Positions 10,754 through 34,752 of a DNA stretch of 36,317 nucleotides are shown piece by piece. The translations under genes and the position numbers were made by a program. Numbering within the stretch: position 1 is the first letter of the stretch; every line of letters starts with the position of its first letter. The notes beneath the pieces were generated by a model. It saw only the letters and a list, made by a program, of their open reading frames with translations, was not told the DNA's origin and ran no database searches. The DNA is from Candidatus Erwinia dacicola (lineage in GTDB: Bacteria; Pseudomonadota; Gammaproteobacteria; Enterobacterales; Enterobacteriaceae): contig NZ_MAYS01000057.1 of the NCBI RefSeq assembly GCF_001756855.1, positions 1 to 36,317 on the forward strand, given 5' to 3'.

Positions 10754-12028
10754 CTATTTTAGTAGTGCAACCGGTATGTCCTTCCATCTTGTGGTCCACG
10801 CCGGTGAAAGCATCTCTCGCTTCATTTGCCACTCTGGGGCTGTTCCTTGCCCGGCAAACCACAGCTTACCAAGTCCTGAGTTATTCACTTTGTCCAGCAC
10901 CGACATCAGCTGCGCGCTGGCAGGGCGCGGCGGCGTATCATCGAACAGACCCAGCTGAGCCATTGCTCCAGAGCTGAAGTCTCCCAGCATGATGCCAGCC
11001 TTTGCATACCTGTGGCCATCGCGCCAGATGCGCTCGAGACAGCGCATGGCCACGGCAATGATGTCCCGGGTGTCCTGAGTGGCCACCGTCAGTTTTTCTC
11101 CCGCCACGTTGCCGTAGTACGGTTCCCCCTGAGCAAACGGGGAGGTCTTGATGAATGCAGAGATGTGCTGACAGTACTGTCCTTCCTGTCGCAGTTTTTC
11201 GGCCGCACGTTGAGCATGGGTGCATACCGCCTGACGCATACTTTCAAGCGACGTGATGCGCTCGCCGAAGCTGCGGCTGCAGACGATCTGCTGTTTCGTC
11301 GGAGGGACTTCTTCCAGTGCGATGCACGATTCGCCGGCCAGTTCCCGCACGGTACGCTCAAGAACTACGTTGAAATTTTTCCTGATGAAGGCCGGATTAC
11401 TACGGGCAAGATCTAGCGCCGATATTATCCCCATTGCATTAAGTTGCTTACTGAGCCTGCGCCCAACGCCCCAGACTTCTTCAACCGGCTGACGTGAAAG
11501 CAGCTTGTCCGTTCGCTGAGGGTTGCCCGGAGTCAGTGCCAGCACGCCTCCAAATTGCTTCCATTCCTTGCTGGCCCACTGGGCTGATTTTGCCAGTGTT
11601 TTAGTTGGGCCCATTCCTACGCCTACGGTTAACCCTGTCACGGTCCTGACCCTCTCACGCACGCGCCTGCCGTAATCTTCAAATGACTCTGTGCGGTCAA
11701 TGCCCCGTATATCCAGGAAAGATTCATCGATCGAGTAGATTTCCGTGGCCGGTGCCATTTCTTCCAGAACCGTGGAAACCCTGACGGACATGTCGTGATA
11801 CAGCGAGTAATTACTGGAAAAGGCGTGCAGGCGTACCGGAAACTGCTGTGATTTTATCTGAAACCACGGCTGCCCCATTTTAATACCCAGGGCCTTACTT
11901 TCGGCGCTGCGGGCGATCACACAGCCATCGTTATTCGAAAGTACGATAACCGGGGCGTTTTTTAAATCCGGGCGGAATACCTTCTCGCAGGAAGCGTAAA
12001 AGCTATTGACGTCAACAAGTGCAAACAC
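10754..12028 (-). CDS. umuC: Y-family DNA polymerase V catalytic subunit (UmuC), copy 1
   Basis: A 424-residue protein close in length to E. coli UmuC (422). The catalytic carboxylates are present: D6 in MFALVDVNSF and D101-E102 in YSIDESFLD. The C-terminal clamp-binding motif QLGLFDD is also present. With processed UmuD it performs mutagenic translesion synthesis. It starts with GTG three bases after the umuD stop and is in the same LexA-controlled operon. It resembles the second copy at 32777-34048 throughout but is clearly diverged from it. Confidence 0.95.
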   Translation of the reverse strand: MFALVDVNSFYASCEKVFRPDLKNAPVIVLSNNDGCVIARSAESKALGIKMGQPWFQIKSQQFPVRLHAFSSNYSLYHDMSVRVSTVLEEMAPATEIYSIDESFLDIRGIDRTESFEDYGRRVRERVRTVTGLTVGVGMGPTKTLAKSAQWASKEWKQFGGVLALTPGNPQRTDKLLSRQPVEEVWGVGRRLSKQLNAMGIISALDLARSNPAFIRKNFNVVLERTVRELAGESCIALEEVPPTKQQIVCSRSFGERITSLESMRQAVCTHAQRAAEKLRQEGQYCQHISAFIKTSPFAQGEPYYGNVAGEKLTVATQDTRDIIAVAMRCLERIWRDGHRYAKAGIMLGDFSSGAMAQLGLFDDTPPRPASAQLMSVLDKVNNSGLGKLWFAGQGTAPEWQMKREMLSPAWTTRWKDIPVALLK

Positions 12029-12031
12029 GAT

Positions 12032-12460
12032 TCACCCCCGCGTAGCGTGGAGAAACCAGGTCACAACACCGAAAATTTCCAGCGCGTCCGGTTCCGGATA
12101 GATCGTGGAAAACGCGGGGTTCATCGGCTGCAGTGCGAGGCACGGGCGCAGCTGCAGAACTTTGACGGTGAACTCCCCATCCACGGCAGCGATCACAATG
12201 TCTCCGTGAGAGGGTGTTTCTGATTTATCCACGACGAGCAGGTCACCATCCCTGATCCCGGCATCTACCATGCTGTGGCCAGAAGCTCTGATGAAGTACG
12301 TTGCACTGCGGTGCCGGATACACAGGTCGTTCAGATCCAGCATCTCCTCAACGTAGTCCTGGGCCGGAGAAGGAAAACCGGCGGGCACTCGTTCCGTAAA
12401 GAGAGGAAGGGGTATGTGGGTTAACGCTGCAGAGACTGCACATAGCCCGGATCGATTCAT
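12032..12460 (-). CDS. umuD: UmuD-like SOS mutagenesis protein, copy 1
   Basis: A 142-residue protein from the ATG at 12460, which has AAGGTG upstream. The cleavage site is A27-G28 in [12 protein letters not shown], the catalytic serine is S63 in ASGHSMVD, and the lysine is K100 in GEFTVKVL, as in LexA/UmuD peptidases. RecA-stimulated self-cleavage yields UmuD', the partner of UmuC. A longer frame beginning at 12541 would read through the LexA box and is not credible. The A-G cleavage pair rather than C-G matches plasmid homologues such as MucA and ImpA. Confidence 0.93.
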
Positions 12461-12479
12461 AAGAGCACCTTTGTGAATA

Positions 12480-12495
12480 CTGTATTTATGTACAG
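12480..12495 (-). promoter_or_regulatory. LexA binding site (SOS box) of umuDC copy 1
   Basis: CTGTATTTATGTACAG matches the LexA consensus CTGT-N8-ACAG, with an AT-rich centre. It lies 20 bases upstream of the umuD start, so LexA repression and damage induction are expected. Confidence 0.9.
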
Positions 12496-12585
12496 TATTA
12501 ATATAATCGCGACTTACGCGCTCTACAACCGGGCAGGCCAATACTTACAAATCGTTCTTAAAACCGCAGAAACCGAGCCTTTTAC

Positions 12586-12725: not shown

Positions 12726-13682
12726 ATGAAAATTTTTATGGATGACGGTTCAACTAACATCAAAATGAAATGGGAAGCTGATGGCGAAATCAGGCAGATG
12801 ATCAGCCCTAACAGCTTCAAGCCGCAGTGGTCTGTGCCATTCGGCGCACAGCCAGTGTTCAACTACAGCATGAACGGCGAGCAGTATTCATTTGACCCGG
12901 TCGCTGCCGATGCCGTGGTGACAACGAACGTGGCGTGGCAGTACAGCGATGTGAACGTTGTGGCCGTTCATCACGCACTGCTGCAGACGGGGCTGGTACC
13001 GTGTGAAGTAGATATCACCGTTACGCTGCCGCTGAGTGAGTATTACAACCGGGACAACCAGCCTGATAATGAAGCCATCAGGCGTAAAGAACAGAGCCTG
13101 ATGAGGCCTGTCACTCTCAATGGCGGCAAAACCTTTACAGTGCGGAGCGTGGCCGTGATGCCTGAATCGATTCCTGCCGGATTCAGCGTTCTACAGACTA
13201 TGGACCCGCTGGAGTCTCTGCTGATTGTTGACCTCGGTGGGACCACTCTTGATATTTCTCAGGTAACCGGGCGGATGTCGGGAATAACGCGAATTTACGG
13301 CGACTCAACAATCGGCGTGTCGCTGATGACGTCTGCAGTGCGTGATGTGCTGCGCGTGGCCAGAACACACGGCAGCAGCTATCTTGCTGATGAGATGATT
13401 ATTCACCGCAGTGACGACAGTTATCTGGCTGCGCGCATCAATGACACGACGCGTCTGCCTGAAGTGAAAAGTACGCTGACCGAGTCTGAAAACAGACTGA
13501 CAAAACGGGTTCTCAACGCGGTCAGTTCATTTGAGGGATACACGCACGTCATGGTTATCGGCGGTGGTGCTGAAATCGTGGCAGGGGCAATCCGTGAACA
13601 CTGCGGCATCCGGCCGGAGCGCTTCTTTAAAACAGATTCTCCCCAGTATGACCTCGTAAACGGTATGTTTGAAATCGGATAA
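12726..13682 (+). CDS. parM: ParM/StbA actin-like plasmid segregation ATPase
   Basis: A 318-residue protein that I can align with R1 ParM almost end to end: the N-terminal phosphate-binding loop [13 protein letters not shown], the stretch [20 protein letters not shown], the second phosphate loop [12 protein letters not shown], and [11 protein letters not shown]. ParM forms insertion-polymerising filaments that push plasmid copies apart when capped by ParR bound to parC. The start at 12726 is supported by an AGGGGTAAGG stretch upstream. ParR follows after five bases. Confidence 0.95.
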
Positions 13683-14311: not shown

Positions 14312-14962
14312 ATATTGCCGGGAAGGGAGTGGCCGTGCTCGTTGTCACTCCGTTGCACTGACGCTTCCTCGCCCGGGCTGTTCGTTCCTCGCTTCGCTGC
14401 GGTACGCCTCAGTCCTGGCTGTGGCGAGCGTTAGGGGTGATTTTTTTATCATTTTAATGTTCAGTCCTTTCACTACGGTGCGGTAAGCGCGGGGAAATTC
14501 TTTAGCCGGAAATACCGTGCCTGCCCGTCCGGCAGGACTCCGTGACCTCATCTTCAGTATGGAAGTCGCGTTGCTCCTTATTTATGGCGCCTGTCGGCGC
14601 ACCCCTTCCAGCCATCGGCGCCAGCAACTTTCTCACCTCATCCAATGTTCTGTCCGAAGATGACCCACGTTGTTCGCTTTCTGTTTTAAGGATGTCGCTG
14701 CGCTCCGCTTCTGAGCCGTCCAACGCCCTGCGGTCGTCAGCCGGCGGGTCTGAGGTGCCGTGCCCTCACTGTAGCCGGGCTGGCGTTCAGACAAGGGAAG
14801 CTTCGCCGGCCTGCTCACCCGTTCCCCGCCGTGCGCGGGACATTCAGTCCGCTCCGGCGGCGCGTGCGGCTTGCGCGTCCGCCCCTGTCTGTTCCGCCTG
14901 TCGCCCGTCTTTGTGGAGGCCACGGCACAAGAGGGTGCCCCCATCAGATAAGGAGTCAGCGT
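14312..14962 (+). other. Leading-region intergenic block upstream of the DNA methylase
   Basis: No gene. The right part (14813-14950) resembles the block at 16619-16745 in sequence and layout, both running up to the ribosome-binding site of a leading-region gene. Short GC palindromes are frequent, for example GCCTGTCGGCGC at 14588. Such repeated, hairpin-rich spacers are where single-stranded (Frpo/ssi-like) promoters sit in conjugative leading regions; no promoter is proven here. Confidence 0.45.
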
Positions 14963-20987: not shown

Positions 20988-21039
20988 ATGTCACAGCAGA
21001 ACGTCAAGGGCGCGACAGCGAAGCCTACAGAATCATCAG
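20728..21039 (+). repeat. 311-bp leading-region direct repeat, copy B
   Basis: The second copy of the repeat at 18025-18335, including the hairpin arms at 20866-20875 and 20896-20905 and the first 17 codons of the ParB-like gene. The single indel is in a run of C within TTTTCCCCTTC. Confidence 0.9.
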
Positions 21040-22973
21040 CAAAGAAAACCCGCGCTGCGAAAAAATCAGCGACTGCCGTTGAAGCGGTGCTGGAAAAGGC
21101 CACCCTCGCGTACTTCCCCCTTTCCCGCCTGGTGAAGTCCCCGCTTCAGGCCCGCAAGCGGCCGCACTCCCCTGAAGATATCCGCGACACGGCTGAAAGC
21201 ATTGCCGGGGTCGGACTTATCCAGAATCTGGCGGGGCATGAAATGGCCGATGGCCAGATCGGTATCTGCGCCGGGGGCGGACGCCTGGAATCGCTGGTGC
21301 TGCTGCAAAGCGAGGGGCGCTGGCATCCCGACCAGCTGGTCCCTGTGCGTATCGTGCCGGAGGATATGGCAAAGGCCGTTTCGCTGACCGAGAACGGCAG
21401 ACGCCGGGATATGCACCCGGCTGAGCAGATTCAGGGTTTCCGCGAACTGTCAGAAGAGGGCAAAACGAATGCACAGATTGCAGACCTGATGGGCTACAGC
21501 ACCCGCCACGTTGAGCGCTGCATGAAGCTCGCCGGACTGGCTCCCTCACTGCTGTGCCTGCTGTCCGAAGACCGCATTCAGCTCGACCACTGCCACGCGC
21601 TGGCGCTGGCCGACACCCATGAACGCCAGGAAGAAATCTGGGAAAGCGCCGTCAGCCGCGCGTATGACGTCCCGTCCCCGCAGGCGATCCGCAGCCTGGT
21701 CACCTCGGGCGAGGTGAAAACGTCAGGCAGCGACCTGTTCCGCTTCACCGGGCTGGATGCGTATCTCGCAGAGGGCGGCGAGCTGCGCACCGACCTGTTC
21801 AGCGACGAAAACGAGGGCTGGGTCGATTCCCTGACGCTGCAACGCGCCGCGCTGAACAAGCTGTCCGTCATCGGGGCTGAGATTGCGCAGCGCGAAGGCT
21901 GGCAGTGGAGTGAGGCGCGGCTGAGTCAAATCAGGACGTGGGGCGATGATGCAAGGGCGTATCGTCACTATCCGTTTCCTGAGCGCGTATTTACCGCAGA
22001 GCAGGCGTCCCGCCTGGAGGAGATTGAAACGCTGATGGACGCGGCCAGCGACGACGAACGCGCCGCGCTCGATGCCGAAGTCGCGGCCATCCATGACGCC
22101 GGGGAAGCCGCCGCGTGGCCTGAAGCAACGCGCCAGCTCTGCGGCGTGGTGGTGTCGCTGGACCACGGTGTGATTCACATTCAGCGCGGGCTGGCGCACA
22201 TCACCGAAGAGGAAGCCGCCGCCATCGAAGCCCGCCAGGCCGCAGCGGTCGCGGCCGTCACCCACGCACAGCCGACCGTTGAGGCCGATGAATTCCCCGC
22301 CACGCTGGTGAAAGCGATGTCCTGTGAGCGCACGCTGGCGGTTCAGGCCGCGCTCTGTACGCAGGCTGATATGTCGGTCACGCTGCTGATCTGGCATCTG
22401 GCAAAGGGGGTATTCACCTCCGGGCGCGGCGGTCCGGATCCATCCCGGGTTCAGCTTAACGACAACCAGTACATACTGCGGGAAAAATCCGTCTCCGGTG
22501 AAAACGGCAGGGCGTACCGCTTCCTGATGGAAGAAAAAGCCCGCTGGGAGGCCCGCCTGCCGGACGACTGGCGTCACGACATGCGCTGGCTGCTGGCATG
22601 GTCTCCGGAGGAGAGAAATGCCCTGCTGGGCTTCCTGTCTGCCCTGTCGGTCGACGGCATGCAGGACCGCGAGTACAGCCGCACGCAGCGCAGCAGCCTG
22701 GACGCGCTGGAGTCGGTGATGGCATTCAACCTTTACGACTGGTGGCAGCCGACCGCTGAGAACTATTTCAGCCGCATCGGCAAGACGCAGATCTGCAAGG
22801 CGATGAGCGAGGCGGGACTGACGGGCAAGGCCAGCGATGCCGAAAAAATGAAGAAAGGCGATGCCGCCGAGCTGGCCGCTGAAGAACTGGCGGCAAGCAG
22901 CTGGCTCCCCGCGTGGATGAAACCCGCCGTCGATGCCAGCGAAGAAACCACCCCGGACGAGCGCGCCGCCTAA
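20988..22973 (+). CDS. ParB/Spo0J-like protein of the leading region (YubM type)
   Basis: A 661-residue protein from the ATG behind GAAGGAG. Residues about 41-140 form a ParB/Srx N-terminal domain ([15 protein letters not shown], later [10 protein letters not shown] and [13 protein letters not shown]). A helix-turn-helix follows at about 160-182 ([19 protein letters not shown]). The long C-terminal region is helical with acidic stretches. Leading regions of IncF and related plasmids carry such proteins (YubM), unlinked to a ParA, so a role in the recipient rather than in partition is likely. It is followed by a GCCGCCCC hairpin (22981-23000) and psiA. A psiB gene, usually located between the two, is absent. 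Confidence 0.85.
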
Positions 22974-23015: not shown

Positions 23016-23780
23016 ATGAGCCAGGAACTGACCATCATTTCCGCCAGCCGTGCGCTGGTTCCCGTCAGCGATGCCCGTCGCGCCGCTATGGACGCGATTG
23101 CCGAGGTGGAAGACAGGCGCCGGAACGGGCGGCGTTTATCCCGCCACCCGTATTCGTGGGCGTTCTTCCGCCACCTTTCAGGGGCGGGCCGGGCCAGCGG
23201 GCAGAGCCTGCTGCGCGCCGGGATAATGTGGGAGCCGCGCCGCCGGATGACCAGCATCAGCGAGTACGAGCACGCGCTGAACGTGCTGCTGGAAAGCCAC
23301 GGGCTGCACTGCCCGCTGCCGCTGTCGGGCAGCGTGCGGCAGCAGCTGTTTCCCGAATACTGCTTTGCCCAGGATGATCGCCGTGAGAAGAAACGGGCAC
23401 TGTCCATGCACACGGCAGCCCGGCGGGAAGCGAGCCAGGCTGCGCGGGAATACATGCTGCTTCAGGGGCGGGCAGGGCAGGTGGCGTCTGAGCTGAACTT
23501 CTGCACGCCGGTGACCGTCAGCGCGTGGTACAACAGGTGGGAAAGGGAACTGCCTGAAGAACTGCTCGAAGGCGCTTTCTGGCGGTGGCAAAAAAGGTTT
23601 CCCTCGCTTCAGCCCCTGCTGCCACTTGAAGGAATGGGAAATCCCCTCTGGTTCGTGATCGGTGCCCTGAACCACTGTAACAGCCATACTCCCGACTGGC
23701 TTAGCTCGCTGGAAACTAACTTCAGTCAGAACCGTCTGAGGGTAATAACTCAGGATGAAATGATGAAAAAATCTCCGTAA
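23016..23780 (+). CDS. psiA: PsiA-like leading-region protein
   Basis: A 254-residue protein with CAGGAG before the ATG. The N-terminal part (SRALVPVSDARRAAMDAIAEVEDRRRNGRRLS followed by HPYSWAFFRHLSG) has the pattern I know from PsiA of F-type plasmids (about 240 residues). PsiA is encoded with the SOS inhibitor PsiB in the leading region, but its own activity is not established. Here the gene follows the ParB-like gene directly and no psiB is present. The first residues extend slightly beyond usual PsiA. Confidence 0.75.
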   Translation: MSQELTIISASRALVPVSDARRAAMDAIAEVEDRRRNGRRLSRHPYSWAFFRHLSGAGRASGQSLLRAGIMWEPRRRMTSISEYEHALNVLLESHGLHCPLPLSGSVRQQLFPEYCFAQDDRREKKRALSMHTAARREASQAAREYMLLQGRAGQVASELNFCTPVTVSAWYNRWERELPEELLEGAFWRWQKRFPSLQPLLPLEGMGNPLWFVIGALNHCNSHTPDWLSSLETNFSQNRLRVITQDEMMKKSP

Positions 23781-23843: not shown

Positions 23844-24116
23844 ATGTCAGTTACCCGATTACGGCAACAGGGTGGTGCGGTGGTGTTGACCATTCCAAGC
23901 GACATCGCTGCAAAGGCGGGATGGAGTGTCGGCACCCTGCTCGATGTGACTGCAGATGGTGAAGCCGTGAGCATTAAGCCATCAGGCCGCATGGCGCGGG
24001 GAAGTAAAACACTCTCGCAACTGCTACAGGGGATTGATGAGGAAGAGATCCGCCAGTTTAATCAGGACGTCAGTGACGGCCTGAATGATGAGCCGCAGGG
24101 CAGGGAGGCGATCTGA
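23844..24116 (+). CDS. Antitoxin, MazE/PemI (AbrB-fold) family
   Basis: A 90-residue protein from the ATG with CAGGAGG upstream. Residues 1-50 show the swapped-hairpin AbrB/MazE DNA-binding pattern: VTRLRQQGGAVVLTIPSDIAAKAGWSVGTLLDV. The acidic C terminus should wrap around and inhibit the toxin. It is expected to repress its own promoter at 23784-23836. The stop codon overlaps the toxin start (TGATG). Confidence 0.88.
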   Translation: MSVTRLRQQGGAVVLTIPSDIAAKAGWSVGTLLDVTADGEAVSIKPSGRMARGSKTLSQLLQGIDEEEIRQFNQDVSDGLNDEPQGREAI

Positions 24117-24481
24117 TGGTATCAAGGAAGGTGCCACAGAAAGGCGAAATCTGGCACGTCAATGGCGACCCCGTCGAGGGAAGGGAGTTCAGGGGACCGC
24201 ATTATTATCTTGTCATTTCACCGCGTGAGCTGGTCGCTGCCCTGGGAACAGCCGTATGCGTCCCGGTCACGAGCGGAGGAGCAGCAGCCCGTTCGAAGGC
24301 CGTCACGGTATACCTGGACGGCGACAGTACCGACAACGGGAAAGTGACAGGCGTGGCATTGTGCTATCAGCTGCGCTCTCTCGATCTGACCGCGCGAAAG
24401 GCCAGCTATGCGGCTAAAGTAGAGCCGCATATCATGGATGAGATCCTTTCAATGGTTGTGGACCTGATTGACCCACGTTAA
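24116..24481 (+). CDS. Toxin, MazF/PemK/ChpB-type endoribonuclease
   Basis: A 121-residue protein with the MazF-family pattern: KGEIWHVNGDPVEGREFRGPHYYLVISP, then VCVPVTSGG, and GVALCYQLRSLDLTARKA where the QLRSLD segment corresponds to the conserved NQVRxxD region. Such toxins cleave mRNA at short motifs. It is coupled to the antitoxin by overlapping TGATG and has its own GGGAGG. The pair would act in plasmid stabilisation. Confidence 0.9.
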   Translation: MVSRKVPQKGEIWHVNGDPVEGREFRGPHYYLVISPRELVAALGTAVCVPVTSGGAAARSKAVTVYLDGDSTDNGKVTGVALCYQLRSLDLTARKASYAAKVEPHIMDEILSMVVDLIDPR

Positions 24482-24489
24482 AACTGAAT

Positions 24490-24515
24490 CAGCTGGCCTG
24501 CATAGCAGGCAGCTG
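24490..24515 (+). terminator. Hairpin after the toxin gene
   Basis: A strong stem-loop, GCCTGC and GCAGGC around ATA with an outer CAGCT/AGCTG pair and one bulge, lies nine bases after the toxin stop. The 3' side carries CAGGCAGCT, the same nonamer as the CRISPR I-F-like repeats downstream, so this may be a degenerate repeat rather than a simple terminator. No T run follows. Confidence 0.45.
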
Positions 24516-24561
24516 TATTTCAGGACCGAGGACCGTTAAGGATGTATTTTTTTTTCATTAT

Positions 24562-24589
24562 GTAAACTGCCGTGCAGGCAGACTATTAA
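24562..24589 (+). CRISPR. Solitary CRISPR type I-F-like repeat
   Basis: GTAA, then ACTGCCGTGCAGGCAG (24566-24581), then ACTATTAA. The 16-bp core differs at one base from the E. coli/Yersinia-type I-F repeat core ACTGCCGTACAGGCAG and keeps the CTGCC/GGCAG stem bound by Cas6f. It stands alone, 30 bases upstream of the start of an orphan gene, in an AT-rich stretch. There is no spacer array on either side and no cas gene in the window. Confidence 0.75.
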
Positions 24590-24619
24590 AATCAATTGAT
24601 AACCATACAGGATGTCATC

Positions 24620-25108
24620 ATGAAAAATATCAGCCAGGCCGCTAGTTTTATTGAAATTCAGACTGCCGCCCGCAATATAGGAATGGACGTCATTACCGGT
24701 GCGACGCTGTTCGAACTGTGGAAAGGCGATCGCTATAAGGGCGGCTATCCCACGCTGGAAATGTTAGCACACGAGGTCAGCCTGCATCTTTCAATGGCTG
24801 CTGATGCCGCCGCAGAACGGGCCAGCCAGTTTGAGCTGGTCAGAACAGCGCTGGAAAATCAGGGCGCAACTGAAGCCGCCGTCCTTCATCATGGTAAAGT
24901 CATTGGCCTTTGCACCACTTCCGCCGGGCGGGGTAAATCCATCCAGCTGGCCAATGCCGTGACCGATGACGGCAGGCCGCTGAACACTCACAATCTTGAG
25001 ATATCCCGTTCTAAACAAAACCTGAAAGCGGCGCAGCTTAAATCACAGTTCACGGCCAGAATTTATGATGGAGAGATTTTCTATGTCTGTCAGCACGATC
25101 CCTACTAA
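24620..25108 (+). CDS. Orphan protein between I-F-like repeats, 162 aa; candidate anti-CRISPR
   Basis: The ATG at 24620 has ACAGGAT upstream; a TTG at 24596 would add eight residues without support. The protein is soluble and mostly helical in its first 90 residues (LFELWKGDRYKGGYPTLEML, then AADAAAERASQFELVR). A basic, lysine-rich stretch lies near residues 125-150 and YVCQHDPY forms the C terminus. I recognise no family. It is flanked by a solitary I-F-like repeat upstream and three such repeats downstream, and it overlaps the next gene. Its function is unknown; an anti-CRISPR role is inferred from position only. Confidence 0.65.
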   Translation: MKNISQAASFIEIQTAARNIGMDVITGATLFELWKGDRYKGGYPTLEMLAHEVSLHLSMAADAAAERASQFELVRTALENQGATEAAVLHHGKVIGLCTTSAGRGKSIQLANAVTDDGRPLNTHNLEISRSKQNLKAAQLKSQFTARIYDGEIFYVCQHDPY

Positions 25109-25343
25109 TGACGTTTTTAAAGATTTGTGCCTCATTCTCCGGCTACATAAGGACAAGGACTATATTGAAGAACTTTTTATCAGGAAGGGGTGGGATGTAA
25201 GCCGGGCCAAAATCAACGCATGGAGTAAGCGTGCAGGGGACTTTAATCGCGACTTTCGCCCTATGCCTGAAAAGGCCTTGCGGGACTTTATCGATGCCTT
25301 GAAAGAGGAAAAACTGATTGAAGACGACTCTTCGGCAGTGTAA
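25083..25343 (+). CDS. DUF1456 (YehS)-like single-repeat protein, 86 aa
   Basis: The ATG at 25083 is preceded by GGAGAG at good distance and lies inside the end of the preceding gene, so the two are co-translated. The sequence TNDVFKDLCLILRLHKD, then GWDVSRAKINAWSKRAGD and KALRDFIDALKEEKL follows one repeat of the DUF1456/YehS domain, which is normally present twice. The pattern is compatible with a small helical DNA-binding regulator, comparable in position to anti-CRISPR-associated (aca) genes, but this is inference. Confidence 0.7.
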   Translation: MSVSTIPTNDVFKDLCLILRLHKDKDYIEELFIRKGWDVSRAKINAWSKRAGDFNRDFRPMPEKALRDFIDALKEEKLIEDDSSAV

Positions 25344-25348
25344 GTTAA

Positions 25349-25464
25349 AAAAACTGCTGAACAAGCAGCTTAGAAAATTCTGTCGTAGAGTCTGCAGTCT
25401 ACTGCCGGACAGGCAGCTTAGAAAATTCCACTGGAAAGAAAGTTATCCACTGCCGAACAGGCAG
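25349..25464 (+). CRISPR. Mini-array of three CRISPR I-F-like repeats with 20-nt spacing
   Basis: Cores start at 25353, 25401 and 25449, exactly 48 bp apart: ACTGCTGAACAAGCAG, ACTGCCGGACAGGCAG and ACTGCCGAACAGGCAG. The first two continue with CTTAGAAA, identical to the 3' end of type I-F repeats. The third lacks that tail. In the first repeat the stem pair CTGCC/GGCAG has become CTGCT/AGCAG, a compensated change. With 28-nt repeats the two intervals are 20 nt, much shorter than the usual 32-nt I-F spacers. No cas genes or leader are present. Confidence 0.8.
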
Positions 25465-26164
25465 AGTTGTTAAGGTGCAGTACGCGCATAGTCCCCCATG
25501 TTTTAAGCGCGTATTACACCCCGCCTCCATAGCAACTTTTGTTACCTCACATCCTCTTCATCTCGCATGTTTCAGATGGAATAAAAATCCCCTCTTCTGT
25601 TGCCTGATTCAACCACTTCTGCCCGTGCAGGTAATGCCTCCTAACCGATTGTCGGTGGCGTGGTGCTGCAGCTGCAGGTCCTAAAAGAAAAACAGCATGG
25701 CCCCCTTCGGCTCCCCGTCCGTTCCGTCCGGGTCGTCAAGCCCGACTGCGCTAAGCGGCAAGCCGCTAAGCTCCGCCGAACCCCGCAGGCGGGTTTCGGG
25801 CCTGACGGCTAGGGTCTGATGGCAACGTCAAGGTCAACCCCCGCAGCCGGCTATCGCCGGCGCACTCACTGGCCGCGCAGCGGCCGCTGAGGACGCCACG
25901 CCGTTCCGCCGTGTCGGGTGTGTTCGTGCTCATCTCAACATCCGTGCCCCCACTCCCGGCGGTTCTTCGCGGAGGGCTGGTCGTAGCACCGCCGGTTCGG
26001 GCAGAAAGGGGTGAAATGCACGTCGCCTAAAACTTTTTGCCTGGAGCCGCAAAAACTTTTCGTCGTCGCCCCTTTATGCCCTCTCTTCGTCGTTGCTCCT
26101 TTGCCCTTTGCCGCGATGAACTCACCGAGAGATGGCATAAGCCACCGACAACAGGAGAACCAGC
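25465..26164 (+). other. Intergenic block with leading-region repeat module 2
   Basis: 25465-25690 holds nothing that I can interpret. 25694-25823 is the second copy of the module at 20565-20691. 25840-25935 resembles part of the 311-bp repeat (CACTCACTGGCC and GCCGCTGAGGAC), then the similarity fades. The block ends at the ribosome-binding site of the gene at 26165. Confidence 0.5.
25694..25823 (+). repeat. Leading-region repeat module 2, copy C
   Basis: About 130 bp related to 20565-20691. The central hairpin is AAGCGGC-AA-GCCGCTT-like, compensated relative to the other copy, and CCCGCAGGCGGG follows where the other copy has CCCGCACGCGGG. Confidence 0.8.
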
Positions 26165-32776: not shown

Positions 32777-34048
32777 TCATAATCGGGCTATTGGCAAATC
32801 TGTCCATCTGGTGGTGTACGCAGGGGAAAGCATTTCCCGTTTCATTTGCCAGTCAGGAGCTATGCCTCGTCCCGCAAACCACACTTTTCCCAGCCCTGAA
32901 TGGTTAATACCGTCCACGACTTTCATCAGGGCTTCGCTGTTTTCCCGTGGTCGTGCATCATCGAACAGGCTCAGTTGCGTAACGCCCACTGGCGTGAAGT
33001 CGTTCAGCATCACGCCTGCTTTGGCATAACGATGACCCGGAACCCAGATGCGGTTCAGCGCCCGCACGGCTGCGGCGATGATATCCCGGGTATCCTTTGT
33101 CGGGATCACCAGGCTTTCGCTCGCCATATTGCTGTAATAAGGTTCGTTCGCGGCAAACGGTGACGTTTTCACAAACACCCCGATATGCCGGCAGAACTGC
33201 CGCTCGCCGCGCAGCTTCTCAGCCGCCCGCTCCGCATAGCTGCAGACGGCCTCCCGCAGCGCGAAGAAGTCCGAAACACGTTCGCCAAAGCTCCGGCTGC
33301 AGACAATCTGCTGTTTTGCCGGCGGCGCTTCTTCCAGACTGATGCAGCTTTCGCCCTGAAGCTCCCTGACCGTCCTCTCCAGCACCACGCTGAAATGCTT
33401 CCGGATGAATGACGGGCTTGTCTGCGCCAGCTGCAGCGCGGTGCTTATCCCCATTATGTTCAGCTTCCCGGATAATTTTCTGCCCACGCCCCAGACTTCT
33501 TCCACCGGCTGCAGGGCGAGCAGTTTTGCTGTCCGGCGTGGATTATCCGGGGTGATAGCCAGTACGCCGCCGAACTGGCGCCACTGCTTTGACGCCCACT
33601 GCGCGCTTCTGGCCAGCGTTTTAGTCGGCCCCATGCCGACGCCGATGGTCAGGGCCGTATGGCGGTGAACATATTCGCGCAGCTGACGACCGAAGTCCTC
33701 AAACGTCGCGCAGCTGTCGATGCCGGCGACGTCGAGAAACATCTCATCGATACTGTACTGCTCCACGCGGGGGGAAAGGGCCTCCAGGCAGCGCATGACG
33801 CGCTCCGACATCGAGTGGTACAACGAATAATTACTTGAGAACACCACCACGCCTGACTTCTCAGCCGTGGCCTTCAGCTTAAACCAGGGCTCCCCCATCG
33901 GAATATTCAGGGCTTTTGCCTCGGCGCTGCGTGCGATGACGCACCCGTCATTGTTACTGAGTACAATGACGGGGCGGGTTTTGAGATCGGGGCGGAACAC
34001 CTTCTCGCAGGAGGCATAGAAACTGTTAACATCAGCCAGGGCAAACAT
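32777..34048 (-). CDS. umuC: UmuC-type DNA polymerase (ImpB/RumB-like), copy 2
   Basis: A 423-residue Y-family polymerase with D6 and D101-E102 (YSIDEMFLD) and the clamp-binding motif QLSLFDD near residue 365. The start is an ATG preceded by a run of G (AAGGGGGGAACG). It is the last gene of a dinI-umuD-umuC operon, the order known for impCAB. Its sequence follows copy 1 throughout but with many differences, so the two operons were probably acquired separately rather than duplicated recently. Confidence 0.95.
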   Translation of the reverse strand: MFALADVNSFYASCEKVFRPDLKTRPVIVLSNNDGCVIARSAEAKALNIPMGEPWFKLKATAEKSGVVVFSSNYSLYHSMSERVMRCLEALSPRVEQYSIDEMFLDVAGIDSCATFEDFGRQLREYVHRHTALTIGVGMGPTKTLARSAQWASKQWRQFGGVLAITPDNPRRTAKLLALQPVEEVWGVGRKLSGKLNIMGISTALQLAQTSPSFIRKHFSVVLERTVRELQGESCISLEEAPPAKQQIVCSRSFGERVSDFFALREAVCSYAERAAEKLRGERQFCRHIGVFVKTSPFAANEPYYSNMASESLVIPTKDTRDIIAAAVRALNRIWVPGHRYAKAGVMLNDFTPVGVTQLSLFDDARPRENSEALMKVVDGINHSGLGKVWFAGRGIAPDWQMKREMLSPAYTTRWTDLPIARL

Positions 34049-34060
34049 CGTTCCCCCCTT

Positions 34061-34510
34061 TTAAAGGCGCGCCCGGGTCCGGTGGATGAAGTGCGTCACC
34101 ACCCCGAACAGGGTGAGGGTTTCCGGGTACAGCGTCGGGTAATCCGGGTTCATTGGCTCAAGCGCCGGGCGGGGCCGCAGCCGCAGACGTTTGACGGTAA
34201 ACCCCCCGTCCATTTCCGCAATAACGATATCGCCTTCCTGCGCGGTTTCTGCCCGGTCGACAATCAGAATATCGCCGTTATACAACCCGAGGTCGCGCAT
34301 GCTCTCTCCACTGGCGCGGAGAAAGTAGGTGGCAGACGGATGCCGGATGCACAGGCTGTTCAAATCAAGTTCCGCTTCGACATAGTCGCCAGCCGGGCTC
34401 GGAAAGCCGGCCGGGCAGGCTTCGCCAAACAACGGGATAGCCACCGGCGCGGGTGACGCCGGACATGCCTGCAGCTGCGTCCGGGAGAAAACAGGTTCGT
34501 TACGCTTCAT
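34061..34510 (-). CDS. umuD: UmuD-like SOS mutagenesis protein (ImpA-like), copy 2
   Basis: A 149-residue protein. The cleavage site is A34-G35 in [12 protein letters not shown], the catalytic serine is S70 in ASGESMRD and the lysine is K107 in GGFTVKRL. The ATG at 34510 overlaps the stop of the DinI-like gene (TGATG), so translation is coupled. It cooperates with the UmuC encoded 12 bases downstream. Confidence 0.92.
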   Translation of the reverse strand: MKRNEPVFSRTQLQACPASPAPVAIPLFGEACPAGFPSPAGDYVEAELDLNSLCIRHPSATYFLRASGESMRDLGLYNGDILIVDRAETAQEGDIVIAEMDGGFTVKRLRLRPRPALEPMNPDYPTLYPETLTLFGVVTHFIHRTRARL

Positions 34511-34752
34511 CACGGCAGCCAGCTGTCGTCCTGCCAGATAGCCTCCAGCGTTTCCATCACATCCGCCTTCTCACGATCACTGCGCGCGCCGCTGACATCG
34601 AGGCTGCTCTGTGATCCCTTGCTGACGTTGAGCCACAGTGACGGGTAATGCGGCGTCAGGCGTCGCTCAATTTCCTGCTGCAGAGCGGCAAATGCCCCGG
34701 CGGGCATGGCCTTTACCTGTTCCGGAGAAAAACGTACTGAAACCTGTAGCAT
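34510..34752 (-). CDS. dinI: DinI-like SOS protein (ImpC-like), 80 aa
   Basis: An 80-residue protein with the DinI pattern: MLQVSVRFSPEQVKAMPAGAFAALQQEIERRL at the N terminus and a DREKADVMETLEAIWQDDSWLP C terminus. DinI proteins bind RecA filaments and modulate SOS and UmuD cleavage. It starts 23 bases after the LexA box, which makes it the first gene of the operon. A frame open further upstream crosses the LexA box and is not used. The other umuDC operon in this window lacks such a gene. Confidence 0.88.
   Translation of the reverse strand: MLQVSVRFSPEQVKAMPAGAFAALQQEIERRLTPHYPSLWLNVSKGSQSSLDVSGARSDREKADVMETLEAIWQDDSWLP

Follow-up and report, generated by a model that had tools for sequence, protein, structure and literature searches.

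What are CRISPR (clustered regularly interspaced short palindromic repeats) repeats doing on both sides of two small overlapping genes of a plasmid-like contig? The question is posed by contig NZ_MAYS01000057.1 of Candidatus Erwinia dacicola (assembly GCF_001756855.1), whose full 36,317 nucleotides (nt) constitute the window analysed here. An earlier note, made from this DNA alone, described one solitary type I-F-like repeat upstream of two genes, called A and B below, and three more repeats downstream, and suggested a composite counter-CRISPR locus containing RNA anti-CRISPRs (Racr). On balance, we lean towards reading the locus as a plasmid counter-CRISPR module, in which a short-spacer decoy array, a variant of the RNA anti-CRISPR, is joined to a gene pair resembling an anti-CRISPR (acr) gene and its anti-CRISPR-associated (aca) partner.

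The repeats stand where the earlier note had placed them. Four type I-F-like cores, at 24566-24581, 25353-25368, 25401-25416 and 25449-25464, carry 1, 3, 1 and 1 mismatches to ACTGCCGTACAGGCAG; together with a weak fifth match on the minus strand at 14521, they bring the core-match total of the window to five, against a mean of 0.30 in shuffled sequence, and none of 100 shuffles reached five. The second downstream repeat matches the Rfam family CRISPR-DR4 above its cut-off of 35 bits, and at gathering scores Rfam has no other hit in the window. Covariance-model scores for all four repeats are listed in Table 1, the model having been made from 39 repeats that include these four, which match it by construction. 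The three-mismatch repeat at 25353 deviates through a compensated stem change, CTGCT/AGCAG. A further hairpin at 24490-24515, which the earlier note said to share sequence with the repeats, was rejected as a fifth member: it is a longer palindrome, has no handle, is flagged as terminator-like and gives no match to the covariance model at E ≤ 5.

The three downstream repeats form an array, a correction to the earlier description: they follow a period of exactly 48 nt, twice, which defines two spacers of 20 nt, where the type I-F norm is 32. The first two retain the 8-nt I-F handle CTTAGAAA, which is lost in the third and in the upstream repeat. Spacers of 32 nt and near-identical repeats mark a functional type I-F array, and the window has 20-nt spacers and diverged repeats. 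All its repeats resemble a CRISPR repeat in sequence and hairpin, as a Racr does; standing alone, with no other repeat within 100 bp, is true of 24562-24589 only, since the other three lie 48 nt apart. The Racr label proposed earlier therefore suits the solitary upstream repeat and not the downstream array, whose handles and 20-nt spacers point to a different predicted product, namely a complete, cleavage-dead Cascade rather than captured Cas6f and Cas7f.

The same genes recur on other plasmids in the company of such repeats. Among 72,556 plasmid records, gene A matched six and gene B five at E ≤ 1e-5: two of Erwinia persicina, two of Salmonella Karamoja and one of Cedecea hold both genes, and gene A also matched Shewanella baltica pSB01-1. 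The Erwinia relatives have the upstream repeat and two array repeats separated by an 18-nt spacer; the Salmonella relatives have the upstream repeat and four array repeats, with spacers of 25, 20 and 18 nt; Cedecea has the upstream repeat, and a second repeat that precedes an integrase gene. In pSB01-1, the stretch that separates A from a weak homologue of B (37% identity over 51 amino acids (aa)) holds eight repeats, which are on the opposite strand, with spacers of 18, 21, 20, 20, 21, 14 and 14 nt and stems altered with compensation. Scanning genome contigs with an early B alignment yielded one locus, from an uncultured Shewanella (L063; loci are cited by L numbers where needed), with three reverse repeats upstream of gene B, and a viral locus (L213) has one weak repeat (E 0.03) by a gene B relative. 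Repeats are present in all six groups found through the proteins (Erwinia, Salmonella, Cedecea, pSB01-1, L063 and, weakly, L213), and every close relative of A or B that was fetched has an adjoining I-F-like repeat, which supports the composite locus of the earlier note. Array position and strand vary among the relatives.

That note had also held that genes without repeats would speak against the idea, and such cases were encountered in part: Cedecea has no intact array while keeping the upstream repeat, and distant DUF1456 genes of Acinetobacter and of the Pasteurellaceae Glaesserella and Haemophilus have no convincing repeat on the plasmids opened (four of 75 records; best E 0.76). Gene B was found in its own genome only among 392 genomes of the family (E ≤ 1e-6) and 369 of the class (E ≤ 1e-12); no B relatives were found in 50,697 phage records, no relatives in E. 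coli genomes, and none in viral contigs by protein search with B alone. With a B alignment as query, viral contigs gave five loci, four already known.

Searches blind to the proteins arrived at the same genes. Scanning viral contigs for the repeat-spacer-repeat pattern alone returned 27 stretches, and 53 with a wide gap; among them, L015 and L028 have both genes, A being 42% identical to its Erwinia counterpart and B 69-71% identical to the protein P0002, and L019 and L024 have a gene B whose product is 46% and 51% identical to that of Salmonella. When the window array was used as a DNA query against plasmids, 65 records matched at E ≤ 10. Six plasmid regions were opened among 40 listed, and five hold short arrays by covariance model or listed match, with spacers of 20 and 25 nt in Erwiniaceae PD-1, 19 nt in three Serratia plasmids, and 18 and 19 nt in Halomonas KO116; the sixth, H59 of E. 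coli, has no annotated feature there and was not scanned with the model. The Halomonas array adjoins an annotated DUF1456 gene whose product is 26% identical to B. Because the viral pattern and the plasmid DNA search both led back to gene B, they support the link between repeats and gene. With the array of L016 as query, a short array with an 18-nt spacer was found in a Pseudomonas phage.

Spacer lengths cluster near 14 and at 18-21 nt. In the viral contigs, the pattern allowed spacers of 0-30 nt (53 stretches), and pairs were counted where both repeats had 5-bp stems and 5-nt loops; the number of distinct loci per length was one at 8 nt, six at 14, one each at 16, 17 and 18, six at 19, seven at 20, and one each at 21, 24 and 28. 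A second pattern, set for spacers of 28-56 nt, returned 77 stretches, with 40 loci at 32, eight at 33 and one or two at other lengths. A scripted recount, which allowed loops of 4-6 nt, counted repeated spacers once and left out the near-identical L004, L218 and L267, found units in 33 of 112 viral loci; the 38 locus-lengths comprise 8 at 14 nt, 21 at 18-21, 2 at 16-17, 6 at 22-31 and 1 at 8. With ten plasmid and other sources added, 41 of 53 lie at 14 or 18-21 nt. Degenerate units outside the recount, read by eye, have spacers of 20 and 20 (L008), 13 (L063), 18 (L268 and L032) and 19 nt (L269).

Work on shortened type I-F1 CRISPR RNAs (crRNAs) offers a measure for these lengths: a spacer of 6N-4 nt accommodates N Cas7f subunits, complexes with all subunits form on 14- and 20-nt spacers and cannot trigger cleavage (8 nt was not purifiable), plasmid interference is absent even at 26-nt spacers, and only R-loops of at least 32 nt license cleavage (PMC7296934). 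The commonest natural lengths, 14 and 19-20 nt, fall on or 1 nt off the sizes that assemble without cleavage; 18 and 21 nt fit less exactly. In the open-licence PubMed Central (PMC) literature, preprints excluded, arrays with 14- or 20-nt spacers occurring naturally on mobile elements were not found in the matches listed or their excerpts, and no DUF1456 in anti-CRISPR literature among the matches listed.

At the level of RNA, the pair C6-G20 is invariant in all 39 aligned repeats, 99.5% of stem cells pair and four of the five pairs change on both sides, statistics that are partly built in, since most rows came from searches requiring a paired stem or a near-consensus core. The Salmonella rows were found by core similarity alone, and they carry the compensated changes CTGCT/AGCAG and CTGTC/GACAG. 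Promoter-like sequence that ends just before the first repeat reaches at least 9/12 matches in 10 of 33 arrays, against 4.9% of composition-preserving shuffles, and at least 10/12 in six, against 0.6%. Salmonella L007 has TTGACA-17-TACAGT in the same place as the candidate promoter of the window, and the Erwinia array is closed by a terminator-like hairpin. For the window array, the predicted folding energy is -36.8 kcal/mol (z -2.4).

From these traits we infer how the array may work. If the recipient has a type I-F system, its Cas6f would cleave the array RNA 3' of every hairpin, and each crRNA-like unit set free would consist of a 20-nt spacer between an ordinary 5' handle and an ordinary 3' hairpin. 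Around such units Cascades would be expected to form that are complete, yet contain four Cas7f rather than six and are unable to trigger Cas2/3, by which the array would remove Cas8f, Cas5f, Cas7f and Cas6f from service. The upstream hairpin may contribute a further Cas6f site of the classical Racr type, or else serve gene B as an operator.

The two genes are small and overlapping, as the earlier note had described them. Gene A is an orphan, with no match in Pfam, PHROG or NCBIfam, and PADLOC yields BrxF alone, at E 0.04. Gene B is related to DUF1456 (PF07308; 25.3 bits, E 1.8e-5), under the Pfam cut-off of 27, and neither protein matches any model of an Acr or Aca family held in Pfam, PADLOC, PHROGs or NCBIfam. 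Relatives of A are variable, being 31-36% identical to the protein of the window; B is more conserved, at 63-81% in its five nearest relatives, 45-50% in three and 30% in pSB01-1. The order of acr-aca operons is a small variable gene followed by a small conserved one, and A and B can be read, from their sequences, as such a pair, with putative anti-CRISPR and Aca-like roles. The fold model of A is poor, with a mean predicted local distance difference test (pLDDT) score of 50. A small family, C, adjoins three 14-nt arrays (L044, L058 and L062); it came from 137 open reading frames (ORFs) near arrays in viral loci, where 30 loci were tried and two had no cluster. Its profile aligns with the C-terminal part of A at an hhalign probability of 53.5% (E 1.3e-4, score 29.8), against a maximum of 19.4 in 30 column shuffles and 14.7 for the reversed profile, a comparison made after the likeness had been noticed.

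Alternative readings of the repeats have to be set against the decoy array. That they amount to several copies of a classical Racr, whose hairpins alone would sequester Cas6f and Cas7f while spacing and handles are leftovers, is unlikely, though it has a foothold: RacrIF1 keeps substantial inhibition after a handle change (PMC10651486), so that hairpins alone might do, and the upstream and last array repeats have no handles. Against it, handles persist on the inner repeats of the arrays in Erwinia, Salmonella and Shewanella while the stems drift (the viral arrays were searched for with the handle in the pattern), and clustered spacer lengths would be unneeded for titration by hairpins. The palindromes could instead be DNA operators of gene B as an Aca-like repressor. 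A variable gene beside a conserved one is as expected of acr-aca operons, B is predicted to fold into four helices with a middle resembling a helix-turn-helix (HTH) (mean pLDDT 77), and in the window, Erwinia, Cedecea and Salmonella a distance of 37-41 nt separates the end of the upstream core from the start codon. We consider this very improbable, because CTTAGAAA is retained 3' of the palindrome, arrays also occur on the opposite strand or without gene B, and the periods of 42 and 48 nt differ by 6, which is not a helical turn; a Foldseek search with the B model found nothing significant (best E 2.9), for which reason Aca1 (3.1) and AcrIF24 (3.5) among the top three are no evidence. Hardly credible at all are genuine mini-CRISPR arrays aimed at competing elements, as the mini-arrays of archaeal viruses are (PMC11656645): 20-nt spacers do not license cleavage (PMC7296934), repeats differ within an array, and some spacers look duplicated, not acquired.

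A guide-type crRNA mimic of the CreR/CreA kind, whose short spacers would steer the host Cascade so that it represses either the cas promoter of the host or a gene on the mobile element, is an improbable reading that calls for a comparison of targets. Such guides do exist. Among 394 genomes of the order, 82 have Cas6f and 12 match the repeat pattern (the window's included, several in ordinary arrays or without stems). In three Enterobacterales genomes, CreR-like units lie between cas2/3 and cas8f (L219:2044-2086, minus; L220:2147-2194, minus; L221:6448-6485, plus; cas genes other than cas6f inferred from ORF size and order), and their spacers match the cas8f upstream region at a CC protospacer adjacent motif over 16/20, 13/25 with a run of 14, and 13/15 positions (p ≤ 0.01), serving as positive controls (3/3). 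By the same score, 2 of 54 mobile-element spacers have a match in their own locus at p ≤ 0.05, with a mean of 0.56. When host cas intergenic regions are taken as targets (131 stretches from 43 Cas6f-bearing loci, which may not be those of the true hosts), 8 of 54 reach p ≤ 0.05 where 2.7 are expected (mean p 0.52): one spacer each of L012, L017, L022, L024 and L062 and three of L016, two of the matches lying within repeat-like sequence. The window spacers have no clear target among these stretches (p 0.67 and 0.98) or locally (p 0.15-0.39), nor do those of L005, L007, L015 and L028 among the cas stretches (p 0.34-0.93). The arrays of L012, L016 and L033 contain near-copies of their own spacers, which also argues against guides. 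Since eight exceeds 2.7, and the viral contigs may have hosts other than those compared, the comparison does no more than lower the guide reading.

Several observations weigh against the decoy array as well. In addition to the excess of cas matches, one of the eight spacers concerned (L024) adjoins a gene B. Cas6f has no match in the genome of Ca. Erwinia dacicola, in agreement with the 'no cas genes' of the earlier note as far as this family goes, the other cas families not having been searched. Spacers of 22-31 nt make up 9 of the 53 locus-lengths. Among other repeat types, only 3 of 49 rows with the CTAAGAAA handle have stems, all with one identical 18-nt spacer, and none of ten rows of the ATGGCG-stem type has stems. 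In the window itself, the candidate array promoter is weak, no terminator was flagged after the last repeat, and in the best predicted fold repeat 3 pairs with spacer sequence instead of three clean hairpins forming.

Table 1. Positions of the repeats, spacers, genes and candidate promoter in the window; bit scores are from the covariance model unless Rfam is named.
Feature	Position	Strand	Remarks
Solitary I-F-like repeat, hairpin kept, 5' handle lost, 30 nt before gene A start codon	24562-24589	+	29.2 bits; a counterpart precedes gene A in L004, L005, L006 and L007
Gene A, 162 aa, orphan, candidate anti-CRISPR partner	24620-25108	+	C-terminal part resembles small proteins by 14-nt-spacer phage arrays
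Gene B, 86 aa, DUF1456-like, candidate Aca-like partner	25083-25343	+	four predicted helices, HTH-like middle
Possible array promoter TTGAAG-17-TAAGTT, -10 ends 3 nt before repeat 1	25317-25345	+	weak, 7/12 matches; unreported by standard scan
Array repeat 1, compensated stem CTGCT/AGCAG, handle CTTAGAAA	25349-25376	+	36.1 bits
Spacer 1, 20 nt	25377-25396	+	
Array repeat 2, handle CTTAGAAA	25397-25424	+	Rfam RF01317 38.6 bits; 40.8 bits
Spacer 2, 20 nt	25425-25444	+	
Array repeat 3, terminal, hairpin kept, handle lost	25445-25472	+	28.3 bits

The contig around the locus is plasmid-like: among ten window proteins scanned are PsiA (23016-23780), a ParB-HTH protein (20988-22973) and a ParM homologue (12726-13682), and a MazE-like protein (under the Pfam cut-off) pairs with PemK at about 23844-24481. 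The nearby psiA suggests a location in the leading region. Judged by eye from ORF translations, two UmuDC-like gene pairs lie at 10754-12541 and 32777-34513, and the ORF at 119-1447 resembles the gene annotated as DUF1173 that stands before gene A on the Erwinia plasmids, by which the window and these plasmids may share more than the module. Other observations concern repeats elsewhere. On the Cedecea plasmid, a solitary I-F-like repeat (L006:1681-1708) stands immediately 5' of a tyrosine recombinase gene. Upstream of short-spacer arrays in five phage loci (L016, L030, L050, L089 and L102, of which L089 and L102 are near copies) lies a protein family of about 230-280 aa with an early GPF motif. 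Short-spacer units of five, two and two repeats occur in three genomes with no Cas6f match (L222, L223 and L224), and a single 21-nt spacer sits within an otherwise 60-nt-period array near cas6f (G663:C44, L202).

Set beside known systems, the locus resembles Racr (RacrIF1; the acrIC5-racrIC1 operon) in its mimicry of a I-F repeat, its C6-G20 pair, the lack of cas genes alongside, its occurrence on plasmids and phages, and a repeat RNA by a candidate acr gene (PMC10651486). In that work C6 and G20 are crucial for Cas6f, RacrIF1 captures Cas6f and Cas7f and not Cas5f and Cas8f, and interference is also lowered by a non-targeting crRNA (PMC10651486). A Racr is one solitary repeat, whereas the window has an exact-period array with handles, for which capture of the whole Cascade is predicted, and repeats flanking on both sides genes that match no named Acr family in the libraries searched. 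With CreR/CreA (PMC12737573) it has in common crRNA-like units that would use the host Cascade without cleavage, but CreR lies beside a cas operon and the window array does not, being in a plasmid context, and no promoter match of its spacers was found. The shortened I-F1 crRNAs (PMC7296934) likewise combine spacers of 14 and 20 nt with an unaltered handle and hairpin; they are an engineered series, while the present ones are natural plasmid and phage sequences. From acr-aca operons the pair differs in matching no Acr or Aca model. The window, with its psiA, and the Salmonella relative, with psiA upstream and an antirestriction gene downstream, resemble leading-region anti-defence islands (PMC11541004).

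If the decoy reading is true, mobile elements would be turning to their own use a structural checkpoint in type I-F immunity (PMC7296934), and 14- and 20-nt units should be sponges for the whole Cascade. SRUFinder, the published search for solitary repeats, discards full repeat matches within 100 bp of each other (PMC10651486) and would drop arrays of the window type, by which RNA inhibitors of a whole class may have escaped notice. The chance is close to even that truncated-crRNA decoy arrays with spacers near Cas7f steps, at 14 and about 20 nt, are widespread on plasmids and phages of Gammaproteobacteria and their kin, one lineage being tied to A, whose C-terminal domain recurs by 14-nt arrays, and to an Aca-like DUF1456 clade represented by B; they would add a third way of countering defence by RNA to those of Racr and the CreR type. 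Protein families A/C and B are, in that event, candidates as anti-CRISPR partners.
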